Assembly (NCBI GenBank): GCA_003279635.1
Contig: QCHK01000016.1
Span: 1-35,118 of the forward strand
Direction: 5' to 3'
Origin: Prochlorococcus sp. AG-402-B05
GTDB lineage: Bacteria > Cyanobacteriota > Cyanobacteriia > PCC-6307 > Cyanobiaceae
Length of the DNA stretch: 35,118 bases
The position numbers and the translations under genes were made by a program. The notes beneath the pieces are model-generated. The model saw only the letters and a list, made by a program, of their open reading frames with translations. It was not told the DNA's origin and searched no databases. Positions 15,466 through 17,789 of the stretch are shown piece after piece (the first letter of the stretch is position 1; each line of letters starts with the position of its first letter).

Positions 15466-15620
15466 AAAAATTTCCTTGCATTTATAACAAGAGTAGATCT
15501 AAATATGAATTACTTCTACACTCTGTGTCCTAGAAAAAATTAAACTTCAAGGAATGGATTTTTAATAACACATAGCTTTATTTCAACAATTAAGCACTTA
15601 ACAGCACTAAGAATGATACA

Positions 15621-15644
15621 GTGTAGGTACCGGTGTAGGTACCA
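15621..15644 (+). repeat. Tandem 12-bp repeat just upstream of the sir reading frame
   Basis: GTGTAGGTACC occurs at 15621-15631 and again at 15633-15643, a 12-bp period ending directly before the TTG at 15645. Each copy carries the palindrome GGTACC. The interval GGTACCGGTGTAGG differs at one base from the cyanobacterial LexA-type consensus RGTACNNNDGTWCB, as I recall it. It may be an operator. The copies contain in-frame TAG codons, so translation cannot start further upstream. Confidence 0.55.
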
Positions 15645-15983
15645 TTGCCTAAGATCATAGAAATACCAGGAAGATCGGGTTTTTACCTCAGGGTTGCCGT
15701 ACCAAGAGGTAAATTAAGGGATGCTTTTGGAACATGTGATGTAGTAAAAAAAATAGGTAACACTAAAGAAGAAGCCGAAGAGAACATAAGCTCAGCAGAA
15801 ATAGCTATTCAACAAAAGTTCGATGAAAAGCTCAGAGAAGAAGATGCAAAACAAATTAACAAATCTTTGCCCAAAGGAATAAGACTAGAGGCAATTAAAA
15901 ATAGTAATGCAAAAGAACCTCCAAAAAACATAGAAAAAGACTTAAAAGATGCTGGATTTAGTAATGCAGCTATTGAAGCTCTG
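15645..15983 (+). other. Integrase-arm-like N-terminal segment fused in frame to sir
   Basis: Residues 1-113 of the sir frame are not part of known sulfite reductases. Residues 13-65 follow the pattern of the N-terminal domain of many tyrosine/phage integrases (DUF6538-like): FYLRVAVPRGKLRDAFG, then VVKKIGNTKEEAEE and a Lys/Glu-rich helix to about residue 72. Next comes a Lys/Asn-rich linker, and residues 100-114 (LKDAGFSNAAIEALM) look helical. No integrase catalytic domain (R-H-R-Y) is present. The frame stays open through 113 codons of AT-rich DNA, which suggests it is translated. The domain assignment is by eye and needs a profile search. Confidence 0.5.
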
Positions 15984-17789
15984 ATGAATTTTGATGAAAA
16001 GGAAAGTACCAATATTGAAGAGATAGAACAAACTGTTCCATCACCTTGCATAGCTAATAATTCACCTCGGGCAAAATTTGAGCAATTTAAAGCCGATAGT
16101 AATTATTTAAATGAACCCCTACATAGTGAGTTATTAAATGACAGCGATCACTTTACAAACGACGCAGTACAACTTTTAAAATTCCACGGTAGTTATCAAC
16201 AAGACGATCGAGAGCATAGAAAAAGAGGGGGCACAGGTAAAGATTGGCAAATGATGCTGAGGCTAAGAAATCCAGCTGGTTATGTACCTGGCCCACTCTT
16301 TGTGGCATTAGACGAGCTATCTGATCGACTAGGGAATCAAACCCTTAGAGCGACCACTCGCCAATGCTTTCAAATGCATGGAATAAAAAAAGAAAACATT
16401 AAAGAAGTAATTGGAACAATAGTCAAATCAATGGGATCTACACTTGCAGCTTGTGGAGATGTCAATAGAAATGTAATGGCTCCTGCAGCCCCCTACGAAC
16501 AAGGGTCCTATCCTGCCGCGAGAAAATTAGCTAATGATATTGCCGATGTTTTATCGCCCCAAAAAGCAGAAAAAACCTACATTGATTTATGGGTAGATGG
16601 CGAGATGAAATATGCTATTAAGCCTTCTTCTGAAGTTAAAAAGAATAGAAAGCTCCAACTAAAGCCTGGTGTTTTTAGTGGGGATAAAAAAGAACCTTTA
16701 TATGGTGCAACCTACTTACCAAGAAAATTCAAATGTGCAACTACAGTCCCTGGAGATAACTCTGTGGACATTCTTACTCATGACATAGGTTTGGTGACGT
16801 TTACAAACAAAAAAGGAGTTTTAGAAGGATGTAATATCTATGTGGGAGGAGGCATGGGTAGAACACACAACTTAGATACGACATTTGCGAGGATAGCAGA
16901 CCCAATTGGTTATGTAGAAGGTGAACATATCTTAGAACTTGTTCAATCTATACTCGCTCTTCAAAGAGATTATGGAGATAGAAAGACAAGGAGACATTCA
17001 AGACTAAAATACGTTTTGCATGACATGGGTGTGGATTGGTTTAAGAAACAGTTAATAACTAAATATTTTACGGGAAAAATTAAAAACCTTAGGCACGAAG
17101 GGGATACAATACTTGAAGATTATTTAGGTTGGCATCAACAATCTGAGAAGCTATGGTTTGTTGGCCTACCTTTATTGTCAGGTAGACTTACAGGAAAGGT
17201 AAAGAAAGAGATTAGAAATATAGTTGAAAAATATGCATTGGATGTGCGTTTAACTCCCAACCAAGATCTTTTATTGTGCAATATCGGTAATTATCAAAAA
17301 GCCAGTGTAAAGAAGGCACTGATTAATATAGGTATTATAAATCCAGGGACTCCTGACTCATTGACCAGACATGCCATGGCTTGTCCAGCTCTTCCATTAT
17401 GTGGGCTGGCAATGACTGAAGCAGAAAGATTTTTACCTGAGCTTTTGGAGCGAATAAACAATCAATTAAAAATTCTAGAAATCAATAAAGCAATCCTAAT
17501 CAGAGTAACAGGTTGTCCGAATGGATGTGCTCGCCCTTATATGGCTGAATTAGCACTTGTTGGTAGTGGTTTAAATCAATACCAACTTTGGCTTGGAGGC
17601 AGCCCTAATTTAAAAAGGTTAGCGACTCCATATCTACAAAAAATGCCTATCGATGACTTAGAGAAGACATTAGAGCCATTATTCCTTAGTTGGAAAAATA
17701 CTGGAACCTCATCAAGTCTTGGGGATCATGTGACTAAACTTGGCACTGAAAGTGTACTGTCTTTACTTACTTCAAGTGCAACTCCATAG
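15645..17789 (+). CDS. sir: Ferredoxin-sulfite reductase with an unusual integrase-like N-terminal extension
   Basis: The main part is a ferredoxin-dependent sulfite reductase, which reduces sulfite to sulfide with six electrons using siroheme and a 4Fe-4S cluster. Signatures are FHGSYQQDDREHRKRG, LRATTRQCFQMHGI, ACGDVNRNVMAPAAP and the cluster cysteines C580, C586 (ACPALPLCG), C624 and C628 (GCPNGCARP). Sir homology begins near PRAKFEQFKADSNYL (residue 141). An internal ATG at 15984 would give 601 residues, the usual length. The open frame, however, extends without a stop to a TTG at 15645, giving 714 residues; an in-frame TAG at 15636 blocks anything longer. The extension is described separately. 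The 3' end overlaps the convergent vanX-like gene by 64 nt. Confidence 0.93.
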   Translation: MPKIIEIPGRSGFYLRVAVPRGKLRDAFGTCDVVKKIGNTKEEAEENISSAEIAIQQKFDEKLREEDAKQINKSLPKGIRLEAIKNSNAKEPPKNIEKDLKDAGFSNAAIEALMNFDEKESTNIEEIEQTVPSPCIANNSPRAKFEQFKADSNYLNEPLHSELLNDSDHFTNDAVQLLKFHGSYQQDDREHRKRGGTGKDWQMMLRLRNPAGYVPGPLFVALDELSDRLGNQTLRATTRQCFQMHGIKKENIKEVIGTIVKSMGSTLAACGDVNRNVMAPAAPYEQGSYPAARKLANDIADVLSPQKAEKTYIDLWVDGEMKYAIKPSSEVKKNRKLQLKPGVFSGDKKEPLYGATYLPRKFKCATTVPGDNSVDILTHDIGLVTFTNKKGVLEGCNIYVGGGMGRTHNLDTTFARIADPIGYVEGEHILELVQSILALQRDYGDRKTRRHSRLKYVLHDMGVDWFKKQLITKYFTGKIKNLRHEGDTILEDYLGWHQQSEKLWFVGLPLLSGRLTGKVKKEIRNIVEKYALDVRLTPNQDLLLCNIGNYQKASVKKALINIGIINPGTPDSLTRHAMACPALPLCGLAMTEAERFLPELLERINNQLKILEINKAILIRVTGCPNGCARPYMAELALVGSGLNQYQLWLGGSPNLKRLATPYLQKMPIDDLEKTLEPLFLSWKNTGTSSSLGDHVTKLGTESVLSLLTSSATP

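Follow-up and report, generated by a model that had tools for sequence, protein, structure and literature searches.

An integrase-like N-terminal domain on a Prochlorococcus sulfite reductase and paired repeats at its promoter: a possible captured self-regulating unit

Why a sulfite reductase should begin with a sequence resembling the start of a recombinase was the question raised by one locus in the window, the 35,118-nucleotide stretch of DNA from Prochlorococcus sp. AG-402-B05 analyzed here. The open reading frame at 15645-17789 (+ strand) starts with TTG and encodes a protein of 714 amino acids, sulfite reductase (Sir) with an N-terminal extension of about 134 extra codons. The ferredoxin sulfite reductase model TIGR02042 (NCBIfam) matched residues 139-706 with 732.7 bits, just above its cut-off of 731.5, and the Sir models together covered residues 135-706. 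An earlier note had read 15645-15983 as the 5' end of a recombinase that sir had taken up in frame, and the residues that it quoted from the extension were present in the sir frame. The explanation that we prefer, and consider probable, is that sir took over the DNA-binding domain of an integrase, along with the integrase gene's operator and start codon, and that Sir now represses its own promoter. The features on which this explanation draws were as follows.

15614..15622, + strand: presumed extended -10 TGATACAGT, identified by eye; TACAGT in 28 of 30 sequences, the other 2 each differing at one base
15622..15631, + strand: direct repeat 1, TGTAGGTACC, a proposed half of the operator; identical in all but one of the 30 sequences, which has a single change
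15632..15633, + strand: variable 2-bp spacer; GG in 21, AG in 3, GC in 3 and GT in 3 of 30
15634..15643, + strand: direct repeat 2, TGTAGGTACC; identical in all but one of the 30 sequences, which has a single change
15645..15647, + strand: start codon TTG; of 31 distinct sequences, 29 start with TTG and 2 with GTG
15645..15836, + strand: integrase arm-binding-like domain, residues 1-64; homology to integrase N-termini, predicted fold, dN/dS 0.063
15927..15998, + strand: second conserved segment, residues 95-118; dN/dS 0.071; the alignment with integrase subgroup A extends through residue 114
15984..15986, + strand: internal ATG, unconserved as a start; ATG in 26 of 30, CTA in 3, ATC in 1
15999..16058, + strand: weakly constrained junction, residues 119-138; dN/dS 0.345
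16059..17789, + strand: ferredoxin sulfite reductase core and stop; TIGR02042, residues 139-706

The capture itself was well shown. Alignment of the extension with two integrase subgroups gave hhalign probabilities of 99.4 (residues 2-114) and 98.8 (residues 1-65), thirty column-shuffled profiles reached 2.4 at most, and BLASTP against nine integrases returned E-values from 7e-14 to 3e-4, supporting the in-frame capture of a recombinase 5' end. The stretch first described was a real feature but an incomplete one: integrase-like sequence reached approximately residue 114, weakly past residue 64, and the repeats at 15622-15643 belonged to the picture as well. Residues 95-118 are probably also integrase-derived; taken alone, this segment reached a probability of 25.6 for one subgroup and of 0.05 for the second.

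The earlier note had counted a missing integrase-profile hit against the capture. Pfam, NCBIfam and PHROGs named no integrase domain in residues 1-152 of the window protein, Pfam found no Phage_integrase match and hence no catalytic integrase domain in the 714-residue Sir, and the window extension did not match DUF6538 (PF20172). That model matched 6 of 16 Sir extensions with a best E-value of 0.12, short of its gathering cut-off, and two integrases themselves, L061 and L096, scored 22.3 and 17.2 against a cut-off of 27. As the standard profiles miss the extension, the link to integrases rests on related integrases, which did match. One of them came from genome G006, where a second match to the extension fell within a 424-codon frame. 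Its product is a tyrosine recombinase, with Phage_integrase at E 1e-7 and, below cut-off, DUF6538 at E 1e-4 over residues 10-60.

When the domain profile A2 was run against 400 genomes of the family, 119 were matched at E ≤ 1, many of these being short chance matches; 31 of the matches with E below 1e-3 were sir. Of 26 further loci examined, a set that leaves out one weak match in a 195-codon frame (G294), 18 held integrase frames of 399-466 codons, 6 held frames that were short or broken, and 2 held other fusions. The whole-integrase Pfam scan covered L061 and L096, and the other integrases were named from their translations. Five loci (L098, L100, L104, L105 and L093) held shortened or frame-broken integrases that retained the N-terminal domain, and such broken integrases are raw material for fusions. 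Across the class, the domain was matched in 5 of 338 genomes at E ≤ 1e-4, all within the bacterial family, and by its sequence the subfamily was seen only in this family. Searches for a phage source returned only two Sulfolobus virus records for the extension (E 5) and four distant phage records at E ≤ 1e-3 for the L061 integrase; among viral contigs, 62 stretches fit a pattern and none was confirmed. Literature searches of titles and the beginnings of abstracts, outside subscription journals, found nothing naming a sir-integrase fusion, and a search for DUF6538 likewise found nothing.

The predicted structure of the extension was consistent with the arm-binding (AB) domain of tyrosine recombinases. 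The AlphaFold model placed strands at residues 3-5, 13-18 and 32-38 and helices at residues 23-28 and 41-74 (pLDDT 87 to approximately 90), a predicted order of strand, strand, short helix, strand and long helix that contains three strands and one long helix. The AB domain of Tn916 is described as three strands followed by one helix (PMC8138268). Structural matches to 3rmp_C, a P4-like integrase structure, were weak (Z 3.4 with rmsd 3.6, and Z 3.2 with rmsd 3.7, 54 residues aligned in each) and sat among unrelated structures of equal Z. Foldseek gave nothing at E ≤ 0.001 for either model, and the sequence search for solved relatives gave three meaningless matches with E above 7. In its N-terminal homology and predicted strand-strand-strand-helix order, the extension thus resembled a DUF6538-like AB domain; unlike tyrosine recombinases, the protein has sulfite reductase in place of the core-binding and catalytic domains, and its DUF6538 score stayed below cut-off.

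The conservation of the extension indicated that it is translated. Over residues 2-62, dN/dS was 0.063, with 0.125 for the linker (63-94), 0.071 for residues 95-118, 0.345 for the junction (119-138) and 0.082 for Sir residues 139-630, as calculated from 27 of the 30 genus sequences, those that were full-length or of 634 codons. The extension is under strong purifying selection. That Sir instead begins at ATG 15984, leaving the extension as an untranslated relic, is highly improbable: a Sir of normal length would begin near that ATG and TTG is a weak start codon, but the low dN/dS of residues 2-62, a frame that stays open across the whole extension in each of the 30 genus matches, and the absence of the ATG in 4 of 30 sequences (CTA or ATC) all argue against it. 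Because it was missing from those four, ATG 15984 is unconserved as a start, and three of the four had no in-frame ATG within the first 135 codons. Some relatives carried a 1-base insertion just before the start and retained TTG. Capture and translation of the extension are, in our judgment, near certain. A chance open frame was also considered and was rejected by the presence of the extension in 30 of 41 genus genomes and by its dN/dS of 0.063.

The 30 genomes matched by the 134-residue extension (E ≤ 0.01) included all 17 genus genomes that were at least 90% complete. Of the 11 genus genomes without it, 10 gave no match to the Sir core (E ≤ 1e-50), and in the eleventh the core was a 113-residue 3' piece at a contig edge, so that every genus genome with an identified sir 5' end (n=30) carried the extension. 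It was also present in a sister lineage, L023 (identical in sequence to L092 of genome G082), with 68% identity over the protein, whereas sir was unfused at six other loci (L020-L022, L024, L026 and L029). Other picocyanobacteria have, at this locus, an unfused sir that lacks the extension. Presence of the extension in all cyanobacterial Sir proteins, raised by the earlier note as a possible objection, was not observed: in genus g18, the Sir core was matched in 36 of 41 genomes (E ≤ 1e-100), with frames of 602-603 codons in 32 and of 588, 563, 544 and 350 codons in the other four, and since none exceeded 603 codons, none was of fused length. Fused and unfused sir shared the same flanking genes, which we take to be glyS, ddpX and recG, in 8 of 8 loci compared, and the piece was therefore joined at the native place. 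The fused protein resembled other ferredoxin-dependent sulfite reductases (TIGR02042) in its whole core and its place in the glyS-sir-ddpX-recG order, and differed from the unfused ones by approximately 134 additional N-terminal residues and by the promoter repeats.

Those repeats lay directly before the TTG codon as TGTAGGTACC-NN-TGTAGGTACC, a pair of 10-bp direct repeats at 15622-15643 with GG as the spacer in the window, and the first base of repeat 1 was also the final T of the presumed -10. Among the 30 genus sequences, changes occurred in 2 of 600 repeat cells versus 9 of 60 spacer cells (Fisher p 1e-8), and conservation was lower across the 80 alignment columns upstream, where block means were 0.75-0.87 apart from a single block at 0.94. 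A search allowing up to 3 mismatches returned 46 pairs in the 41 genomes, versus 10 for a backward control pattern; 30 were exact and 16 had 3 mismatches. The exact pair occurred once in each extension-bearing genome (n=30), just before sir in every case. The sister lineage carried repeats of its own, TGTTGGTACC, also 12 bp apart, and the pair was absent before the unfused sir loci compared.

At the same place, fused sir had GATACAGTGTAGG and unfused sir GCTAATGTATAA or GCTACGGTGTA, the last two being sequences that the presumed -10 resembled. Because this -10-like sequence was common to fused and unfused sir, we infer that the native -10 was kept and that the repeats were laid over the transcription start. 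The suggestion that sir had gained a new promoter was thus half right: repeats were added on top, but the -10 region resembled that of unfused sir. A sigma-70 promoter scan returned nothing on the + strand at the presumed -10. Separately, a second conserved block at approximately 15494-15546 in the glyS-sir gap lay nearer to the divergent glyS and is probably the glyS promoter. A regulon was considered as a further possibility and rejected: the exact pair was found only at sir, the remaining 16 matches all had 3 mismatches, and no regulon was found.

Similar pairs preceded most of the related integrases compared. A significant direct repeat (one reached by fewer than 5% of shuffles, with 300 shuffles per member and 100 per control) was found in the 90 bases before the start in 16 of 24 integrases versus 4 of 83 control genes; the other 8 integrases had none in those 90 bases. 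All 16 pairs were spaced by 12 or 13 bp, and 13 of them ended within 15 bases of the assigned start, although some repeat-start distances may be off since integrase starts were assigned by rule. The set of 24 left out L098, L100, L122 and L124-L128 (broken, or near-identical copies of L123), L104, L105, L130 and L131 (broken), and L118, L133, L135 and L136 (second copies of loci already used); it kept L093 and L109, though short, and L097, with 45 upstream bases only. Domain identity and repeat similarity were correlated among the 19 members with repeats (Mantel rho 0.37, p 0.0004), with a rho of 0.27 for pairs under 55% domain identity, which are not independent of one another. The integrase nearest to Sir in its domain, L096 (48%), also had the repeat nearest to that of sir among 18 others, matching 13 of 16 letters; L023 matched 10. 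By eye, a TANNNT hexamer met repeat 1 in 3 of 3 sir genes compared and in at least 6 of the 16 repeat-bearing integrases.

These paired sites of integrase type at sir's own promoter suggested that Sir can turn its own gene down. In the proposed mechanism, the 5' end of a family-specific tyrosine recombinase would have been joined in frame to sir in the ancestor of one Prochlorococcus genus, bringing the paired repeats by the promoter, the TTG start, the arm-binding domain and approximately 50 further residues, with the junction made before sir at its native locus. Sir would thereafter have borne a sequence-specific DNA-binding domain whose only exact genomic site was its own promoter. With repeat 1 overlapping the presumed -10, accumulated Sir would bind the repeats and block RNA polymerase, a feedback by the enzyme itself, like that of integrases on their own genes. 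The captured unit seems to include its operator; DNA binding, repression as the sign of regulation, and sensing by the catalytic part are inferred. As the integrase catalytic core is absent, binding might need dimer contact supplied by Sir.

KplE1 provides a precedent (PMC2951348). There, intS is expressed at a lower level under the action of IntS, and the -10 is overlapped by the arm-type site P'1, which its authors were unable to tell apart from the -10 by mutation. Fused sir resembled that self-repressed gene, as it is described there, in having binding-site-like repeats at or over the promoter of the domain-encoding gene; unlike intS, the regulated product is a metabolic enzyme with no recombination function left, and repression in Sir is only proposed. 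The fused Sir is neither an integrase, having no catalytic integrase domain, nor a proven repressor. PutA exemplifies enzymes whose fused DNA-binding domain lets them act as repressors of their own genes. Like PutA, Sir joins an enzyme to a putative DNA-binding domain within a single chain, and its own promoter carries a candidate site; unlike PutA, its domain came from a mobile-element integrase and apparently arrived with its operator.

Conserved domain and repeats are silent on the sign of regulation, and the domain could instead activate the gene or tether Sir to DNA or the nucleoid without feedback repression; plastid Sir is said to bind DNA. We regard this as unlikely, as a single exact site per genome argues against a general nucleoid role, and protein bound at repeat 1 would lie over the presumed -10, where it would usually block polymerase. 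Doubtful to a similar, marginally greater extent is an account in which the repeats act in mRNA or serve another regulator and the domain is kept for Sir folding or partner contacts. The repeats, all within 24 bases of the start codon, could make up most of the leader, but the repeats were gained along with the domain and vary in step with it among integrases, and the same arrangement preceded a second fused gene, that of a Rieske oxygenase.

In two Prochlorococcus genomes of g18 (G365 and G384), the domain headed a Rieske ring-hydroxylating oxygenase, identified by Pfam Rieske (E 9e-13 and 5e-13) and also by NCBIfam, at the following positions.

L099, 2984-4333: Rieske fusion
L102, 1089-2408: Rieske fusion

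The domain occurred in 13 of 266 g18 genomes, and the oxygenase part in 2 of the 400 family genomes (E ≤ 1e-40), fused in both. Before L099, a perfect repeat pair ended 2 bases before the ATG; the pair before L102 was decayed (8/10, p 0.55). TANNNT met repeat 1 in L099 and not in L102, by eye. Sir and Rieske sequences lay on opposite sides of the domain tree with modest support (84/78), and a single Sir and Rieske clade passed the topology test (p-AU 0.12). One origin for the two domains was tried and not rejected; two fusion events are claimed because the enzymes and loci differ, and two donors are not claimed. With these fusions taken together, we lean slightly toward the broader proposal that integrase 5' ends make up a transferable unit of self-regulation (an arm-binding domain with paired sites and, in many cases, a weak start codon) captured whole by sir and by the Rieske oxygenase separately, making self-repressors of both. 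Self-repression would perhaps be tuned by the state of the catalytic part, such as siroheme, an iron-sulfur cluster or substrate.

If true, a mobile-element integrase can seed new gene regulation in a single step, since the operator travels with the DNA-binding domain. Regulators are few in the streamlined genomes of Prochlorococcus, so an enzyme that regulates itself would be an inexpensive replacement. Because many domain-repeat pairs occur in nature, the rules by which these variable domains recognize DNA can also be tested directly. The earlier note had not described the repeats, the conservation across the clade or the Rieske fusion.

Several minor observations were made at these loci. 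A block ending like CGACCTGA..AACCA recurred roughly 60-150 bases before the integrase start at L061, L093-L095, L101, L108, L123 and others; it was unexplained by tRNA or Rfam matches and is perhaps an attachment site or the end of an RNA gene. No tRNA lay beside the integrases at 13 loci scanned, and an Rfam scan of 10 integrase loci gave one riboswitch match, a Glutamine-II riboswitch at the locus edge (L123, 3130-3174). By eye, from translations, FabH-like synthase frames lay near both Rieske fusions, and a chain-length-type polysaccharide protein lay near L099. In the window, sir and its downstream neighbour were convergent frames with a 64-base 3' overlap at 17726-17789.
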